Shown here: positions 6,166 to 61,035 of the stretch, piece after piece
Position numbering within the stretch: position 1 is the stretch's first letter
Layout: the number at the start of each line of letters is the position of its first letter
Origin: Xiamenia xianingshaonis
GTDB lineage: Bacteria > Actinomycetota > Coriobacteriia > Coriobacteriales > Eggerthellaceae
Length of the DNA stretch: 64,000 bases
Direction of reading: 5' to 3'
Assembly (NCBI RefSeq): GCF_017945865.1
Contig: NZ_CP072829.1
Location: 930,001-994,000, forward strand
The notes under the pieces: model-generated
What the model was told of the DNA's origin: nothing
The model's input: only the letters and a program-made list of their open reading frames with translations
Database searches by the model: none
Made by a program: the position numbers and the translations under genes

Positions 6166-6330
6166 TTGCGGGCTTCAGCCTGGCCTTCTCTGCGCGAAGC
6201 GCGAGAGGCGATGATTCTCCCGTTATGCAGAAGGGGCGAGGGTTGTGGGCGTCTTGTGGTGATAACGGCGAACTAATGTATGGTTATAGCGGGCGCTGGT
6301 ACGATGGGCGAAAACGAGAAGGAGAAGCGC

Positions 6331-7842
6331 ATGCACGAGATCGTCTGTCCCCATTGCCGCACCGCGTTCCAGGTGGACGAAGCCGGGTTCGCGGCCATTT
6401 TGAAGCAAGTGCGCGACCAGGAGTTTCGCCAAGAAGTTGACCGAAACGCTCAGCTTTACGAGCGCCAGCTCGAGCAAGCGGTGGCGGTTGCGGTGTCCCA
6501 GGAAAAGGAGCGGGCCGCCAAGGCCGAGCAGGCGGCCGTGCAACGTCTGGCAGAACTTGAGGCGCGTCTGCAAAAGGAGCGCGACGCGCAGGCGCAAGAG
6601 GCGCTGAAGGCGCAGGCCGCCGCCGACCGGGCGCTGTCCGAGGCGAACGCAGCGGCGCAGCGCCAGCTTGCCGAAGCGAACGCAGCAGCCCAACGGGCGT
6701 TGTCCGAGGCGACGGCGCAGCGCGACGCGCGCATCGCCCAGCTGGAAGCGTCGCTCAAAGCGCAGCAGGACGTGCAGTCGCGCGAGCTTGCCAGCGCGCT
6801 GTCGCTTGAGCGCGAACGGGCGCGGGGCGACGCGGCCGAGCAGCAGCGGACCGACGCGGCCCGCATCGTCCAGCTCGAGGCGCAGGTGAAGATCAAAGAC
6901 GTGGAGCGAGCCCAGGCTGAAAGCTCGCTGCGCGAACAGCTCGCCACCGAGCTGGCGGCCAAAGACGCCATCATCGCTTACAAGGACGAAGAAATCGAGC
7001 GCTACCGCGACATGAAGGCGCGCCTGTCCACGAAGATGGTGGGCGAGTCGCTTGAGCAGCACTGCGAGACCGAGTTCAACCGCATGCGCATGCTGGCCTT
7101 CCCGAACGCCTACTTCGAGAAGGACAACGACGCCTCGGACGGCACGAAGGGCGACTACATCTTCCGCGAGTTCGACGAAGGCGGCACCGAGGTCGTGTCC
7201 ATCATGTTCGAGATGAAAAACGACATGGAAAGCACGGCGCGGCGCCATCGCAACGAGGACTTCTTCAAAAAGCTCGACGCCGACCGCACGAAGAAGGGCT
7301 GCGAATACGCCGTGCTCGTCAGCCTGCTCGAGCCGGACAGCGAGCTGTACAACCAGGGCATCGTGGACGTGTCGTACCGTTATCCGAAGATGTACGTCAT
7401 ACGTCCGCAGTTCTTCTTGCCGCTCATCTCACTGTTGCGCAACGCCGCCGCTTCTTCGCTCGTTTACAGGCAAGAGCTTGCCGAGGTGCGCAGCCAAAAC
7501 ATCGACATCACGAATTTCGAGGCGCGCCTTGAAGACTTCAAGGAGAAGTTCGGCAAGAACTGGGATCTGGCCAGCAGAAAGTTCAACCAGGCCATCGACG
7601 AGATAGACAAGTCCATCGCCCAGCTGCAGAAGGTGAAGGCGTCGCTTCTGTCGTCGAGCACGAATCTGCGCCTGGCCAACGACAAGGCGGAAAGCCTGAC
7701 CATCCGCAAGCTGACGTACAAAAACCCCACGATGCAGGCGAAGTTCAAAGAGGCTCGCAAGGCGGCGGAGCGAAGAGGCGGGGATGCCGAAGAAGGCGAG
7801 GTCGTCGAAGCCGTCGTGATCGAAGACGTGACGGGGCGGTAG
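6331..7842 (+). CDS. DUF2130 coiled-coil protein, possible nuclease fold
   Basis: A 503-residue protein. It opens with [13 protein letters not shown], a short Cys-x-x-Cys ribbon, then has a long Ala/Glu/Gln/Arg-rich coiled coil (about residues 40-235). The C-terminal half is the DUF2130 domain (about 240-450). It contains KGDYIFRE and then [12 protein letters not shown], an Asp...Glu-x-Lys pattern that resembles a PD-(D/E)xK nuclease core. The overall plan, coiled coil plus nuclease-like domain, resembles RmuC, but no function is established for this family. The chosen ATG has GAAGGAG upstream. A start 51 bases earlier is possible but has no ribosome site. The gene stands alone. Confidence 0.8.
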
Positions 7843-7964
7843 TGCAGGCCGGGCCGGCCGAAGGAGCGGCGTCGGGCTTGTTCGGCGGGGCGTGCCGGCT
7901 AGGGGCGTCACGGCGCACGGCCCTCTTCTGGACTTTTTGTAGATCGCAGCACTGCCATGAAATA

Positions 7965-7985
7965 CGAACAAAAGTTTGATATAAT
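7965..7985 (+). promoter_or_regulatory. LexA-type SOS box abutting the uvrC -10 element
   Basis: CGAACAAAAGTTTG (7965-7978) fits the Gram-positive/actinobacterial LexA consensus of GAAC and GTT(C/T) half-sites separated by four bases. It is followed two bases later by a perfect TATAAT (7980-7985). A repressor bound here would cover the core promoter. LexA itself is not encoded in the window. Confidence 0.6.
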
Positions 7986-7991
7986 GGATGT

Positions 7992-10097
7992 ATGAGCGAG
8001 TTTGAGAACAAGAACGCCGAAGGGCGCACGAATGACGGTGCGTTTGCGAACCTGCAGCGCGAGGGCCGCCGCCGGCCTGCTCTCGAACGCGCCGTGAAGG
8101 AGTTCGCCGAGAATCCGCCCAGCGCCGAAACGCAGGCTGGAAAGATCGCTCGCATCAAGCGCGAGCTGGAATCGGTGCCGACGCTGCCGGGCGTGTATCT
8201 GTGGAAGGACGCGTCGGGGGCCGTCATCTACGTCGGCAAGGCCAAGCAGCTGCGGGCCCGCATGCGCCAGTACGTGAACTTCCAGGACGAACGGGCGAAG
8301 ATTCCGCTTCTCGTGGACCAGATCGCCTCGTTCGACTACATCGTCGTGGAAAACGAGCACGAATCGCTCGTGTTGGAAAAAAACCTCATCAACCAGCACG
8401 CCCCGTTTTTCAACGCCGACTTCAAAGACGACAAGTCCTATCCGTTCATCGCCGTCATGAAGGGCTGCGCGTTTCCGGCCATCAAGTACACCCGCGAAAA
8501 GCACAAGCCCGACACGCGCTACTTCGGGCCTTACACTGACAGCCGTGCGGCTCGCGACCTGGTCGACATCGCCCGGAAGGTCGTGCCGCTGTGCGCGGCC
8601 AGCTGCGCCGACTGGCGCCAGCTGAACCGCCGGCTCGAGAAAGACCCGCTTGCCCTGCTCGCCCGCGACGCCCGCCCGTGCTTCGACGCGCACGTAGGGC
8701 TCGGGCCGGGGGCCTGCTGCGGGCGCATCACGCCGGAAGCGTACGCGGCCAACGTCAAACGCATCGAGCGCTTCTTGTCGGGCCAGCATCGCGAATTCGT
8801 CGAAGAGCTGCGCGCCGACATGGAAGCGGCCGCCGCAGAGCTCGACTTCGAGCGGGCGGGCCGCATCAAGGCCCGCATCGACACCATCCAATCGCTCACC
8901 GACCGCCAGCACGCCGTGAGCGCCCACAACCTCGACGCCGACGTCATCGGCCTGTTCCGCGAAGAAACCATCGCCGGCGTGCACGTGTTCATGGTGCGCG
9001 AGGGCCGCATCATGAACTCCAACGAATTCGTGCTGAACCGCGGCAAGGACATTCCCGACGAGGACCTGCTCCACATGTTCTTGCTGCGCTACTACGACGC
9101 CACCACGTCCATCCCGCACGAGGTCATCGTCGACGCGCTGCCCGACGACGTCGAGGCCATGGCCGCGTGGCTCACCGAAAAGCTCGGCAGCGCCCACGGC
9201 GCAAAGGTGCGCTTCACGGCGCCGCAAAAAGGGGAGAAGGCCGAACTGGTCTCCCTGGCGCAGAACAACGCCAAGCACACGCTCATGCGCTACAAGGTGC
9301 GCACGAACTACGAAGACAAACGCATCAACGATGCGCTTTTGCAGCTGGAAAGCGCTCTTGCGCTTGACAATCCGCCCCTGCGCATCGAATGCTTCGACAT
9401 CTCCACCATCCACGGCTCGTACACCGTGGCTTCCATGGTCGTGTTCACCAACGGCAAGCCCGACAAAAACCAGTATCGCCGGTTCAAGATAAAAACGCCG
9501 CTTGACGAGGCGAACGACTTTCTGTCCATGCAGGAAGTGATGGAGCGCCGCTACGCGCCGGAGCGCATGGCCGACGAGCGCTTTGGGTCCAAGCCGGACC
9601 TTGTCATCTTGGACGGCGGCAAGCCCCAGCTGACGGCGGCGCTTGCCATGTTCGACCGCATGGGCGTCGACGACATCGCCGTCTGCGGGCTGGCCAAGCG
9701 CGACGAAGAGCTGTTCGTGCCGTGGCAGGACACCGGCCCGGTCGTGCTGCCAAGCGGCTCGTCATCGCTTTACCTGGTCAAACAAGTGCGCGACGAGGCG
9801 CACCGCTTCGCCATCACGTTCCATCGCGAACTGCGCGGCAAGGGCATGACGGCGTCCATACTCGACGACGTGGTCGGCATGGGCCCGGTGCGCAAAAAAG
9901 CGCTCATGAAGCATTTCAAATCGTTTCGGAACTTGAAGGCCGCATCGCTGGAAGACATCGTTGCGGCCCGCGTCGTTCCGCGCGAAGTGGCCGAAGAACT
10001 CTACCGCGTGTTGCGCCAATACGAAAAGGAAAACGGCGCCAGGGCCGCTGCCCGCGAGGCGTGCAGCGCCGCGCGGGCGCAGAAGGAGGAATCATGA
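7992..10097 (+). CDS. uvrC: Excinuclease ABC subunit C
   Basis: A 701-residue UvrC, which makes both incisions in nucleotide-excision repair with UvrA/UvrB. Domains in order: GIY-YIG nuclease (GVYLWKD at 67-73 with IYVGKA at 79-84), the UvrB-binding UVR motif (around AAELDFERAGRIKARI), the RNase H-like nuclease (IECFDISTIHGSYTVASMVV), and a C-terminal helix-hairpin-helix (DDVVGMGPVRKKALMKHF). It has about 60 extra N-terminal residues relative to typical UvrC. The ATG lies only seven bases after TATAAT and has no Shine-Dalgarno, so the mRNA looks leaderless. A LexA-like box overlaps the promoter region. It overlaps rapZ by four bases (ATGA). Confidence 0.95.
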   Translation: MSEFENKNAEGRTNDGAFANLQREGRRRPALERAVKEFAENPPSAETQAGKIARIKRELESVPTLPGVYLWKDASGAVIYVGKAKQLRARMRQYVNFQDERAKIPLLVDQIASFDYIVVENEHESLVLEKNLINQHAPFFNADFKDDKSYPFIAVMKGCAFPAIKYTREKHKPDTRYFGPYTDSRAARDLVDIARKVVPLCAASCADWRQLNRRLEKDPLALLARDARPCFDAHVGLGPGACCGRITPEAYAANVKRIERFLSGQHREFVEELRADMEAAAAELDFERAGRIKARIDTIQSLTDRQHAVSAHNLDADVIGLFREETIAGVHVFMVREGRIMNSNEFVLNRGKDIPDEDLLHMFLLRYYDATTSIPHEVIVDALPDDVEAMAAWLTEKLGSAHGAKVRFTAPQKGEKAELVSLAQNNAKHTLMRYKVRTNYEDKRINDALLQLESALALDNPPLRIECFDISTIHGSYTVASMVVFTNGKPDKNQYRRFKIKTPLDEANDFLSMQEVMERRYAPERMADERFGSKPDLVILDGGKPQLTAALAMFDRMGVDDIAVCGLAKRDEELFVPWQDTGPVVLPSGSSSLYLVKQVRDEAHRFAITFHRELRGKGMTASILDDVVGMGPVRKKALMKHFKSFRNLKAASLEDIVAARVVPREVAEELYRVLRQYEKENGARAAAREACSAARAQKEES

Positions 10098-11107
10098 CGC
10101 ACCATACGCAAGACCAAACGGCAGAAGGCGGGCTGAACCCCATGCCGGAGCTCGTGGTCCTCACGGGCATGAGCGGCGCGGGCCGTACCGAGGCCATGCA
10201 CGTTTTTGAAGACCTCGGATACTTCTGCGTCGACAATCTGCCGGTGAACCTTATCGACGACCTGCTGGCGCTTGACGGCTTTCCAGGGCAGTCGGAAGGC
10301 CAGCGCCGCATCGCCGTCGTGGTCGACGCCCGCAACATGGGCTTTTTCCGGGACGTCGGCGACGAGATCGCCCATTTCGAGGAAGTGGGGTTGACCTACC
10401 GCATCATCTTTCTCGACGCGTCCGACGAAAAGCTCGTGGCGCGCTACAAGGCGAGCCGGCGCCGCCATCCGCTTTGCGGCGACGGGGCGTCGGTCATCCA
10501 GGGCATAGAGCGCGAGCGCGACATGCTCTGCCAGCTGCGCGACAACGCCGACCACGTCATCGACACCACCGACATGCTGCCCCAAGAGCTGCGCCGCGAG
10601 GTGCAAGGCCTGTTCGACGATCGCGAAGGCCGCAGGGAGCTGTCGGTCACCGTGTACTCGTTCGGGTTCAAGCACGGCGCTCCGGTCGACGCCGACCTGG
10701 TCATGGACGTGCGCTTTCTGCCGAATCCCTATTACGACCCCAAGCTGCGCTCGTATACCGGCTTGGATGCGCCGGTGCGCGACTACGTGCTGTACCGCCC
10801 CGAGACCGAAGAGTTCCTGAAGCGGTGGCGCGCGCTGCTCGACTGCGTGATGCCGGGCTACGTCGCGGAGGGCAAGCAGCAGCTGGCCATCGGGGTCGGC
10901 TGCACGGGCGGCCAACATCGTAGCGTCGCGCTTGCTGAAGCCACGGGCGACTACTTGAAGTCGCGGGGCTACCGCGTGTCTACGGCGCACCGCGACTTGA
11001 AGCTTGCCGAGGGCAGCGACGGGCGCCTTGTGGCCGACGACGAGGCCGAACGGGAAGGCGCCGAGGGCGCGCGCGGCGCCGGCGCGCCGACGAAGGCCGA
11101 AGGGTGA
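10094..11107 (+). CDS. rapZ: RNase adapter / nucleotide-binding protein RapZ (YvcJ)
   Basis: A 337-residue RapZ/YvcJ family protein. The Walker A is GMSGAGRT (25-32), and the conserved C-terminal signature is GCTGGQHRSVALAE. In E. coli RapZ delivers small RNAs to RNase E; in Gram-positives YvcJ hydrolyses nucleotides and its exact role is unclear. The start ATG overlaps the uvrC stop (ATGA) and sits behind AAGGAGGA, so coupled translation is likely. The order uvrC-rapZ-yvcK-whiA is a classic actinobacterial cluster. The first 16 residues precede the usual start region, and Met17 is an alternative. Confidence 0.92.
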   Translation: MTHHTQDQTAEGGLNPMPELVVLTGMSGAGRTEAMHVFEDLGYFCVDNLPVNLIDDLLALDGFPGQSEGQRRIAVVVDARNMGFFRDVGDEIAHFEEVGLTYRIIFLDASDEKLVARYKASRRRHPLCGDGASVIQGIERERDMLCQLRDNADHVIDTTDMLPQELRREVQGLFDDREGRRELSVTVYSFGFKHGAPVDADLVMDVRFLPNPYYDPKLRSYTGLDAPVRDYVLYRPETEEFLKRWRALLDCVMPGYVAEGKQQLAIGVGCTGGQHRSVALAEATGDYLKSRGYRVSTAHRDLKLAEGSDGRLVADDEAEREGAEGARGAGAPTKAEG

Positions 11108-11115
11108 GGACGCCT

Positions 11116-12243
11116 ATGACCGCGCTCGCAGCGTTTACCCAAGACTCGTCGCAGACGGCGGCGTTTCGACCCCTGGCAGACGCCGAGGCCGTCGTGGCCC
11201 CGAGCGAGAACGTCAAGGCGGTCGTCATCGGTGGCGGCACCGGCGCCCCGGTTTCCATTCGCACGCTTTTGTCCATGGGTCTGGAAACGAGCGCCGTGGT
11301 GGCCATGGCCGATGACGGCGGCTCGACGGGCATCCTGCGCCAAGAGGCCGACGTCACGCCTCCGGGCGACGTTCGCAAGTGCATCGCCGCGATGGCGGCC
11401 GATCCGACGGATCCACTCACGAAGGCGTTCAAGTACCGCTTCGCCTTCGCCCGCAACCACACGCTCGGCAACCTCATGCTCTCGGCGCTCGAAGACGCCA
11501 CGCATTCTTTCCCCGAAGCCATCGCCATCTGCGAAGATTTGCTGCGCGCACGGGGGCACGTCTACCCCTCGACGCTCAACCTCGTCTCGCTGGTGGCCCG
11601 CACCCGCGACGGGCGCTACCTTGAAGGCCAGGCCGTCGCATGCCATTCCCGCACGGCGCTCGAACGCGTGAAGCTGCGGGCGTGCGAGCCCATCATCCCG
11701 TACGGGCCGGCGCTGCAGGCCATACGGGAGGCCGATCTCATCGTGCTTGGGCCGGGGTCGCTGTTCACGTCCATCATCCCGAATCTGCTCGTTCCCGGCG
11801 TCGTCGACGCCATTCGCGCCTCGCGCGGCGTCACGCTGTTCGTTTGCTCGCTTGCCGACATGCAGGGCGAAACGTGGGGGCTGACGGCCAGAGAGCACGT
11901 CGAAGCGCTCATGGACCACGGCATGGCCGGGCTGCTCGATTACGTGCTCATCCATTCCAAAGAGCCGCTCAAGCCCGACAGCCTGGCAACGGGCCTGTTC
12001 AGCGCCGTGACGGGCAACGACCCGGAGCACACGTCGCTCTCTTCCATGACCGATCTGGAAATGTCGGGGCGCGTGCGGCCGGTGAGGGTCACCTACCAGG
12101 ACGTGAAGCAGCTGCAAGACGAAGGGCCGGTCGTGGTGACGCGCGACCTTGTCGACCCTCTTCATCCCACGTGGCACAACCCGGTCGCGCTGCGCGAGGC
12201 GTTCCAAGGAGTGATGCGGCTATGTCGTTCACGGCAGAAGTGA
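11116..12243 (+). CDS. yvcK: YvcK/CofD-like gluconeogenesis factor
   Basis: A CofD-superfamily, UDP-sugar-binding protein. The nucleotide site KAVVIGGGTGAP is followed by ADDGGSTGILR, and later comes the conserved LGPGSLFTSIIPNLLV. In Bacillus and Mycobacterium, YvcK/CuvA is needed for normal envelope growth on gluconeogenic carbon. I chose the ATG at 11116 because GAGGA lies six bases upstream. A GTG at 11104, overlapping the rapZ stop, would add four residues. The 3' end overlaps whiA by 22 bases, which points to one operon. Confidence 0.9.
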   Translation: MTALAAFTQDSSQTAAFRPLADAEAVVAPSENVKAVVIGGGTGAPVSIRTLLSMGLETSAVVAMADDGGSTGILRQEADVTPPGDVRKCIAAMAADPTDPLTKAFKYRFAFARNHTLGNLMLSALEDATHSFPEAIAICEDLLRARGHVYPSTLNLVSLVARTRDGRYLEGQAVACHSRTALERVKLRACEPIIPYGPALQAIREADLIVLGPGSLFTSIIPNLLVPGVVDAIRASRGVTLFVCSLADMQGETWGLTAREHVEALMDHGMAGLLDYVLIHSKEPLKPDSLATGLFSAVTGNDPEHTSLSSMTDLEMSGRVRPVRVTYQDVKQLQDEGPVVVTRDLVDPLHPTWHNPVALREAFQGVMRLCRSRQK

Positions 12244-13151
12244 AAGACGAGCTCACGCGCGTCGAGCCGGTGTGCACGCACTGCCTGCAGGCCACGTTGG
12301 CGGCGCTCGTCCGCACGGAAGGCACGCTGTTCAAAAGCGGCCAGGACAGCTATCGCGTGGAGATCGCCACCGACACGCCGTCGGTCGCCCGCCTCGTCAT
12401 ACGCTCGCTGCACGAGCTCTACGGCCTGAAAACCGCGCTCACCATGCGCCGCAGCGTGCTGCACAAGACGCCGAACTACCTCATCGAAGTGCCGATGCAG
12501 CCCGGGCTGCGCGGCGTGCTGGAAGACATGGGCGTGCTTAACGACCGCGGCGGCCTTTATCTGGGCATTCCCGACAAGCTTGTCGCAAAGGAGTGCTGCA
12601 GCGCGGCGTATCTGCGCGGGGCGTTCCTCGGCGGCGGGTTCGTGTCCGATCCGCGCGGGGACTTTCACTTCGAGATCACGCTCGAAAACGAGGCGCTGGC
12701 CCAGGGGCTCGTTGACCTCATGGCCCGCAAGGGCATCAAGGCCCGTATCATGCGTCGGCGCAGCTCGCACATGGTCTACCTGAAAAGCGGCACCGCCATC
12801 TTGGAGTTCTTGGCGTTCGTCGGCGCCCATCAAGGGGCGCTCGCCATGGAAGAGGCCCGCGTGGTCAAAAGCGTGCGCAACGACGTGAACCGCCAGATCA
12901 ACGCGGAATACGCGAACCAGGCGAAAACCGTCAACGCGTCGATGGACCAGCTTTCCGCCATCAAGACGGTCGTTGCGGCCTATGGCATGGAAAACCTGCC
13001 CCCGGCGCTGCAAGAGTTCATCGAGCTGCGCATGAAGCATCCCAGCGCCACGCTGAAAGAACTGGGAGACCTGGCCACGCCGCCGCTGTCGAAGTCGGCG
13101 GTGTACCACCGCGTCCGCCGCATCGAATCGATGGCCGCCGACGTGAAGTAG
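12222..13151 (+). CDS. whiA: DNA-binding protein WhiA
   Basis: A 309-residue WhiA with an N-terminal degenerate LAGLIDADG (homing-endonuclease-like) domain. A typical block is CCSAAYLRGAFLGGGFVSDP. The C-terminal helix-turn-helix region includes ASATLKELGDLATPPLSKSA in variant form. WhiA controls sporulation and division genes in Streptomyces and affects division and chromosome segregation in other Gram-positives. The ATG lies inside the end of yvcK in another frame, and the frame itself is open far upstream without a start signal. A bidirectional terminator separates it from the convergent rpmB. Confidence 0.94.
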   Translation: MSFTAEVKDELTRVEPVCTHCLQATLAALVRTEGTLFKSGQDSYRVEIATDTPSVARLVIRSLHELYGLKTALTMRRSVLHKTPNYLIEVPMQPGLRGVLEDMGVLNDRGGLYLGIPDKLVAKECCSAAYLRGAFLGGGFVSDPRGDFHFEITLENEALAQGLVDLMARKGIKARIMRRRSSHMVYLKSGTAILEFLAFVGAHQGALAMEEARVVKSVRNDVNRQINAEYANQAKTVNASMDQLSAIKTVVAAYGMENLPPALQEFIELRMKHPSATLKELGDLATPPLSKSAVYHRVRRIESMAADVK

Positions 13152-13213
13152 GCGGCCGCGCGGCGCGCGACGTCGGCGCGTCGCAGAGCACAGGGAGGCT
13201 CCCAACGCACGAA

Positions 13214-13234
13214 AAGCCCCGCGATGCGGGGCTT
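13214..13234. terminator. Bidirectional hairpin between whiA and rpmB
   Basis: AAGCCCCGC-GAT-GCGGGGCTT is a near-perfect symmetric stem with A/T flanks. It lies between two convergent genes, so it can serve both. Confidence 0.8.
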
Positions 13235-13260
13235 GGTCAGGCGACTCGTCAGTCTGGAGT

Positions 13261-13452
13261 CTAGGCGCGTTCCACCTTGCCGGCCTTCATGCACTTCGTG
13301 CACACGTTCGCCTTGCGCACGCGACCCTTCTTGTCGCGGATGGTGATGCGCTGGATGTTGGGCTTGAACCAACGGTTGGTCACACGATGCGAGTGGCTGA
13401 TGCTTCGACCGGCCACCGGATGCTTGCCGCACACTTCACATACTTTAGACAT
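13261..13452 (-). CDS. rpmB: 50S ribosomal protein L28
   Basis: A 63-residue L28: MSKVCEVCGKHPVAGRS, then the basic core HRVTNRWFKPNIQ, ending in TKCMKAGKVERA. The cysteine pairs CEVC and NVCTKC indicate the zinc-ribbon (C+) form of the protein. The gene has its own minus-strand promoter and is transcribed away from the asp23-like operon, a common Gram-positive arrangement. Confidence 0.96.
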   Translation of the reverse strand: MSKVCEVCGKHPVAGRSISHSHRVTNRWFKPNIQRITIRDKKGRVRKANVCTKCMKAGKVERA

Positions 13453-29482: not shown

Positions 29483-30367
29483 ATGACGGCTGATGGGCTT
29501 GACAGATTCCCCTATGTTGCGGCTGCTGCGCATGAATCGGTTGCGGCACGGCGGCACTATTGGGCTGTGGCCATCGGCCTGCAAGACGTTGACGGCTTGG
29601 AAGTTTCACCATACTTGCGGGATACGGCGCAGGGCCACATCGACGGCGCGTACACCATAGAGCAAGCGGGCGAGCTCGTCCGCGCCCACCATGCGGCGGG
29701 CCATGACGACGCGTCGCGCGAAGCCGACCTGGTCAGCCAGCGCATTGCCGAGCTGCTTTCGCGCTCGCCGTTCTGCCTTGCTCCAGGCATGCTGTCGACC
29801 ATCCACCGCCATCTGTTCCAGGACCTGGACGCTGCCGTCTACCATCCGGGCGAATTCAAGCGCGAGCGGATGATGAAGCAGGAAGACGTGTTGAACGGCG
29901 ACAGCGTGTTGTATGCCGATCCGCTGGCGTACGACATGGCGCTGGCCGGGGCGTTTTCTGCTGAGCAGGCGAAGTTCTATCGCACGCTCTCCGGCGACGA
30001 ACTGGCCGATTTCTGCCACACGATCGCGTTCTTGTGGCAGGTTCATCCCTTTTACGAAGGCAATACGCGCACGGTGGCGGTGTTTTCCGAGCTGTACCTC
30101 AACCATCTGGGCTTCAGCGTGACGAACGAGCCGTTTCAGAAGCATGCGCGCTACTTTCGGGACGCGCTCGTGCGGGCGATGTACCGCAACGCGGACGCCG
30201 GCGTCTTTCCTAATGAGAGTTATTTGGTATCATTTTACGAAAACGTGCTGGGGCAGGCTTCCCATCCGCTCGTGCGCGAAGACCTGCTCTGTGCGGCGCT
30301 GTTCGAAAACCCGCATCTGCTGAGAAACGTCGATCCGCAAGAAGCCCTCGACAAACGGCGCTGGTGA
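29483..30367 (+). CDS. Fic domain protein (putative AMP/NMP transferase)
   Basis: A 294-residue protein with a Fic core. The active loop reads HPFYEGNTRTVAVF, against the canonical HxFx(D/E)GNGRxxR: the His, Phe, acidic residue and GN are present, Thr replaces the second Gly, and Ala the final Arg. Upstream there is PGMLSTIHRHLF and GEFKRERMMKQEDV, typical of Fic folds. Family members attach AMP or other nucleotides to target proteins. The ATG lies six bases after TACAAT and has no Shine-Dalgarno, so the transcript may be leaderless. No obvious antitoxin gene adjoins it. Confidence 0.78.
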   Translation: MTADGLDRFPYVAAAAHESVAARRHYWAVAIGLQDVDGLEVSPYLRDTAQGHIDGAYTIEQAGELVRAHHAAGHDDASREADLVSQRIAELLSRSPFCLAPGMLSTIHRHLFQDLDAAVYHPGEFKRERMMKQEDVLNGDSVLYADPLAYDMALAGAFSAEQAKFYRTLSGDELADFCHTIAFLWQVHPFYEGNTRTVAVFSELYLNHLGFSVTNEPFQKHARYFRDALVRAMYRNADAGVFPNESYLVSFYENVLGQASHPLVREDLLCAALFENPHLLRNVDPQEALDKRRW

Positions 30368-60999: not shown

Positions 61000-61035
61000 G
61001 CGGCGTCCTCTCATCAAAATAGTGTAAATTCTATA

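Follow-up and report, generated by a model that had tools for sequence, protein, structure and literature searches.

The uvrC gene of Xiamenia xianingshaonis, whose genome is a single contig of 2.26 Mb, lies within the 64-kb stretch of DNA that we analysed (hereafter the window; all coordinates are window positions). The closest named relative of its product is the UvrC of Slackia sp. ZJ119 (96% identical), and the other relatives retrieved mostly carry the label Eggerthellaceae or that of a genus such as Gordonibacter, Eggerthella or Adlercreutzia. Upstream, at 6280-7842, lies a gene whose product belongs to DUF2130 (PF09903), a family with no assigned function. The promoter region and the genes that follow it contain these features:

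7957..7962, + strand: weak -35-like hexamer ATGAAA, 17 bp upstream of the -10 hexamer, found by consensus scan
7965-7978, no strand: predicted LexA operator CGAACAAAAGTTTG within the promoter spacer, based on its matrix score and on the sister species
7979: single A between the box and the -10 hexamer
7980-7985, + strand: -10 hexamer TATAAT, with an extended TG at 7977-7978; position kept in relatives
7986-7991: GGATGT, between the -10 hexamer and the start codon
7992..7994, + strand: ATG of uvrC and putative transcription start (+1 = A), six bases past the -10 hexamer
7992..10097, + strand: uvrC, excinuclease ABC subunit C, 701 aa (TIGR00194 and NF001824, above cut-off)
10094..11107, + strand: rapZ (NF003828), overlapping the end of uvrC by ATGA and having its own strong Shine-Dalgarno
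11104..12243, + strand: yvcK (TIGR01826), overlapping rapZ (GTGA) or starting at a nearby ATG
12222..13151, + strand: whiA (TIGR00647), with a start that precedes the end of yvcK

A consensus scan of 7700-13400 returned a single sigma-70-like promoter, consisting of ATGAAA, 17 bp and TATAAT with the extended TG, and the LexA box fills its 17-bp spacer, such that operator, promoter and start codon are packed within ~30 bases. The first-pass annotation had described the box as abutting TATAAT and the ATG as starting seven bases after the hexamer. Its coordinates and sequence for the box were accurate, but one base separates box and hexamer; similarly, six bases lie between the hexamer and the ATG, the A of which is the seventh base, the canonical position of +1. 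We observed no clear Shine-Dalgarno for uvrC; the next gene, rapZ, has GAAGGAGGAATC upstream of its ATG.

We scored the window with a symmetric matrix built from 57 lexA-promoter sites (26 distinct) of other Eggerthellaceae genera, chosen by their core; the training set held no uvrC site and no site from the X. xianingshaonis genome. The uvrC site had the highest score in the window, 17.7 bits, with the runner-up at 10.5, and shuffled windows contained on average 0.033 sites each at the uvrC score (30 shuffles). Moreover, 11 bases of the uvrC box, GAACAAAAGTT, recur unchanged in operators through which lexA regulates itself in other genera. By itself the loose motif is not significant, since CGAACNNNNGTTYG with at most one mismatch occurs as 18 strand-matches in the window against 13.5 expected. 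The same was true of bare motifs across the genome: the exact 14-mer pattern gave 13 strand-hits (10 places) and its reversed control 28, the pattern at one mismatch gave 507 and 659, respectively, and a refined pattern gave 12 for each. These whole-genome counts never exceed those of the reversed patterns, and we rejected them as evidence. In 93 kb of other loci from the same genome, which had been chosen because they match the pattern, two sites scored at least as high as the uvrC site. We set aside six exact matches inside or across open frames (L001, L003, L004, L005, L007 and L008), a pair of loci in which a long stretch is conserved and the box is conserved no better than its surroundings (L010/L128), and CGTACAAACGTTTGATATAAT (L147), which resembles a box followed by a -10 but falls across a 534-aa frame.

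The genome encodes one LexA (E 7.5e-25), which is full-length and retains the Ala-Gly cleavage site and the Ser and Lys motifs. We examined the genome's own lexA and recA genes for the same box, as had been suggested in the first-pass annotation, and found it at both as variants in the same position relative to TATAAT. In the lexA promoter, AGTACCAATGTTCG lies two bases upstream of TATAAT and CGTACATAAATTCG just downstream of it; recA has a similar layout, with AGTACAAACGTTTG (given for the opposite strand) and CGTACATAAGTTTG. The uvrC box is placed relative to TATAAT as is box 1 of each of these genes, and belongs to the same class without being identical to theirs. The genome did not prove to use LexA sites of a different kind elsewhere: the core is also carried by ruvC (CGAACAAACGTTTG, directly after its -10), uvrB (AGAACATGTGTTCC and CGAACAAAATTTCG) and dinB (AGAACAGATGTTTC, two bases before TATAAT). 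Under the lexA-trained matrix these sites score low (recA 8.4 and 5.6, ruvC 9.9, dinB 4.9), as does a site at rarA (3.5). The rarA site (L009), CGAACACCTGTTTG (read on the other strand), is followed by TATCAT, six bases and ATG; rarA is probably among the X. xianingshaonis genes with similar boxes near their promoters, and is a possible second leaderless SOS gene. In another genome of the genus (G001, L124), too, a gene for a rarA-like AAA ATPase has a LexA-like box, with a -10 eight bases before the ATG rather than the six of L009.

Boxes of this class are the rule in lexA promoters of the family. We observed one to four boxes around the -10 of the promoter at 28 of 29 lexA loci from other genera, typically AGAACCTTTGTTCG and CGAACAAAGGTTC or CGAACAAAAGTTC, flanking TATAAT; the twenty-ninth (L160) was left out because its LexA motif was not found. 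A further locus (L191) has a promoter-like stretch between two LexA-like boxes, CGAACAACTGTTC and GAACAGTTGTTCG, and no gene clearly begins there.

We next compared the distance from the -10 hexamer to the uvrC start codon among relatives, searching 74 loci, of which 71 had an intact upstream region and could be evaluated, for a TATAAT-like hexamer (TAYAHT) before an in-frame ATG. The hexamer lies 6-8 nt before the ATG in 46 of the 71, which are related loci and not independent, with gaps of 6, 7 and 8 nt at 27, 18 and 1 loci, respectively; at the remaining gaps between 0 and 30 nt, one locus in total has it. A wider hexamer set gave 47 of the 74 loci. The remaining 25 evaluable relatives have no -10 at 6-8 nt, and some of them show purine-rich stretches before the start. 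Thus, the spacing of a predicted leaderless start is common, but not universal, at uvrC among relatives. We compared uvrC with that of the sister species from codon 1 onward. Over 61 codons there are 17 substitutions, of which 4, 4 and 9 fall at the first, second and third codon positions, and a single indel of 3 nt, a coding-type pattern that upholds the placement of the start codon. The fixed spacing in relatives supports the suggestion in the first-pass annotation that transcription would begin at the A of the ATG or at a neighbouring base. Elsewhere in the window, ATGs with a TATAAT-like hexamer 6-8 nt upstream occur at 29483 and 39663 (+ strand) and at 61014 (- strand), and are candidate leaderless starts.

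The box itself has a much narrower distribution. The genus comprises four genomes: in the sister species (G003, L040) the box, the -10 and the spacing are identical to those of X. xianingshaonis, and the other two genomes have no box at uvrC, one (G002) reading TATACT-TGCCCC-ATG and the other (G001) having TATACT and ATG separated by eight bases. Among the uvrC upstream regions of 72 relatives, that of the sister species alone approached the score of the X. xianingshaonis site, and the next scored 9.1. Since no relative other than the sister species has the box, the putative leaderless promoter is probably old in the family and the operator a recent addition to it, common so far to the nearest species only; by the simplest reading, a single small lineage acquired LexA control in this way.

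Other elements precede uvrC in relatives. The uvrC promoters of Gordonibacter and Eggerthella contain a conserved GGGGAACGCYTGTGCGGTTTGCTATACT, common to six loci (L041, L043, L044, L045, L050 and L102) just before uvrC; its first base or two vary, and bases further out differ among these promoters. We considered it as an eroded LexA site and rejected this, as none of these sites is among the ten best scores; a reading as an ECF -35 was dropped because no -10 motif lies at a fitting distance from it. In Rubneribacter, the region upstream of uvrC has TGTTTCACGTGAAACA (L051) or a degenerate form of it (L042), which resembles a parS site of ParB.

We infer LexA binding, the transcription start, induction and co-induction at uvrC from sequence. 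In undamaged cells, LexA on 7965-7978 would block RNA polymerase. Once damage occurs, RecA would stimulate LexA to cleave itself and the promoter would become free; transcription would begin at the A of the ATG or immediately beside it, and the leaderless uvrC mRNA would be translated without a Shine-Dalgarno. The downstream genes would probably be induced together with uvrC through the gene overlaps. With considerable confidence, then, we read 7965-7978 as a LexA operator in the spacer of the uvrC promoter, giving a leaderless, damage-induced mRNA with probable co-induction of the downstream genes.

Two other readings of the promoter have to be weighed against this one, and we consider both improbable. 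The promoter might be a constitutive leaderless one on which LexA is inactive, the 14-mer being a chance AT-rich palindrome in the spacer. The loose motif is indeed no commoner than expected, relatives in the family drive uvrC from the same -10 spacing with no box, and the conservation of the box comes from one close pair, the sole two box-bearing species, whose flanks are also well conserved, such that the pair cannot reveal selection on the box. By contrast, a chance palindrome would not be expected to score far above the rest of the window, to match lexA operators of other genera exactly over the 11 bases, and to sit relative to the -10 as do the boxes of the genome's own lexA and recA; together these make it a poor bet. 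There is similarly little to recommend a LexA-controlled promoter from which transcription starts a few bases further upstream, leaving a short leader on which ribosomes use GGA at 7986-7988. GGATG does precede the ATG, and sequence cannot show the choice of start site; however, the hexamer lies 6-8 nt from the ATG in the 46 relatives whatever bases intervene, and a spacing fixed in this way fits a start at the ATG.

The extent of the response is less certain. The order uvrC-rapZ-yvcK-whiA is kept in all 60 relatives with at least 4.5 kb of downstream sequence, and the four genes overlap, making co-induction with uvrC likely; the whole set is therefore likely to be damage-inducible, and the proposal of whole-operon induction in the first-pass annotation is plausible. 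RapZ, YvcK and WhiA are regulators of cell wall and division, and if co-induction is true, their genes would respond to DNA damage as passengers. Alternatively, uvrC may be LexA-controlled and rapZ-yvcK-whiA transcribed from an internal promoter with no damage response. Envelope and division regulators would normally be expected to need a constant supply, and our scan covered one simple consensus type, which promoters of other types would escape; nevertheless, the genes overlap by a few bases and the scan found no second sigma-70-like site on the + strand in 7700-13400. We regard an internal promoter as unlikely, while giving it appreciable weight.

The first-pass annotation had singled out a LexA-like box over a leaderless promoter as worth noting. 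That the combination is unusual was not borne out. In the family, LexA core, 0-6 bases, TATAMT, 6-7 bases and ATG occur in this order in 8 of 138 genomes; the reversed control gave 2 hits. Across Actinomycetota, GAACN4GTTCG followed by 0-6 bases, TANNMT, 6-7 bases and RTG is present in 104 of 396 genomes, at 140 places, as compared to 8 places for the reversed control (genome numbers were computed; these place counts, and that for the control spacing below, were tallied by eye from listings). X. xianingshaonis is itself outside the 104 because one half-site of its uvrC box is GTTTG. With 12-13 bases before RTG instead, we found matches in 32 of 396 genomes, at 34 places, some of which overlap the 6-7-base matches. 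A start codon is therefore about four times commoner at the leaderless than at the control distance, for one control spacing and genomes that are not independent.

We assigned genes at 30 of the 140 places (L199-L228), the first listed rather than a random draw. Open reading frames were read for 29 of the 30 (L214 had none, and that of L200 was 15 aa), and 28 were scanned in NCBIfam with E-value cut-offs of up to 1e-5 in two scans and 1e-40 in a third. A recognisable DNA-repair gene begins at 22 of the 30: a dnaE2-type polymerase at 10, imuA' at 6, a DEDD-exonuclease/UvrC-like gene at 2, and uvrB, DNA polymerase IV, dprA and a 2OG-Fe(II) oxygenase (the last by Pfam) at one each. One locus (L212) encodes a radical-SAM protein, and five (L201, L207, L215, L222 and L223) matched no NCBIfam family at the cut-offs used. 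Two further loci (L187 and L188) have GTACATATGTTCGTGTATACTGAGCCCATG, in which a LexA-like box again covers a leaderless -10, followed by a long ORF; the first 501 residues of the L187 ORF match no Pfam family. Hits L189-L192 to the family pattern were left unassigned, as their ORFs are short or their starts unclear.

At uvrC, a promoter style that is found repeatedly at damage-response genes of Actinomycetota was probably acquired locally. We suggest, tentatively and with somewhat less than even confidence, that Actinomycetota build many damage-inducible genes, above all dnaE2 and imuA', as leaderless genes with a LexA operator on the -10, a 30-base module whose mRNA needs no Shine-Dalgarno to be translated under conditions that may impair ordinary translation, and that uvrC is a recent convert, with LexA control added to an already leaderless promoter. 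This would illustrate one route to damage-inducible nucleotide-excision repair, in which an operator is gained on an existing leaderless promoter. The recurrence in the phylum also makes it possible to ask, and to test, whether SOS mutagenesis genes are preferentially leaderless in order to be translated under stress. In the literature that we searched, with most subscription journals outside reach, we found LexA-over-leaderless promoters described as a named class nowhere, and, judging from titles and abstract openings, no study of SOS wiring in Coriobacteriia, for which uvrC provides a worked example.

We regard the uvrC promoter as an ordinary SOS promoter in compact form, and the broader phylum pattern behind it deserves proper study. 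The operator consensus of the Gram-positive type of LexA (DinR) is CGAACN4GTTCG. The sites described here share with DinR operators the core GAACN4GTT, the placement in promoters and the occurrence of this type of site at lexA, recA, uvrB, ruvC and dinB; the uvrC site differs in having GTTTG rather than GTTCG as one half-site. In Corynebacterium glutamicum, uvrC (cg1795) is reported to be the only uvr gene differentially transcribed in a lexA deletion (PMC3489674, citing Jochmann 2009). uvrC is likewise reported as LexA-responsive there; SigH also acts on it (PMC3489674). The lexA mRNA of Mycobacterium tuberculosis is described as leaderless (PMC2897130; PMC3062782), and so combines the LexA system with a leaderless start as proposed for uvrC; the gene there is lexA itself and not a repair nuclease. 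Leaderless genes are common in Actinobacteria, with TANNNT ~12 bp before the start codon (PMC3160421), and the same -10 motif is described in PMC3898074. The uvrC promoter has the hexamer and spacing of these leaderless genes; in uvrC, a predicted repressor site is built into the spacer.
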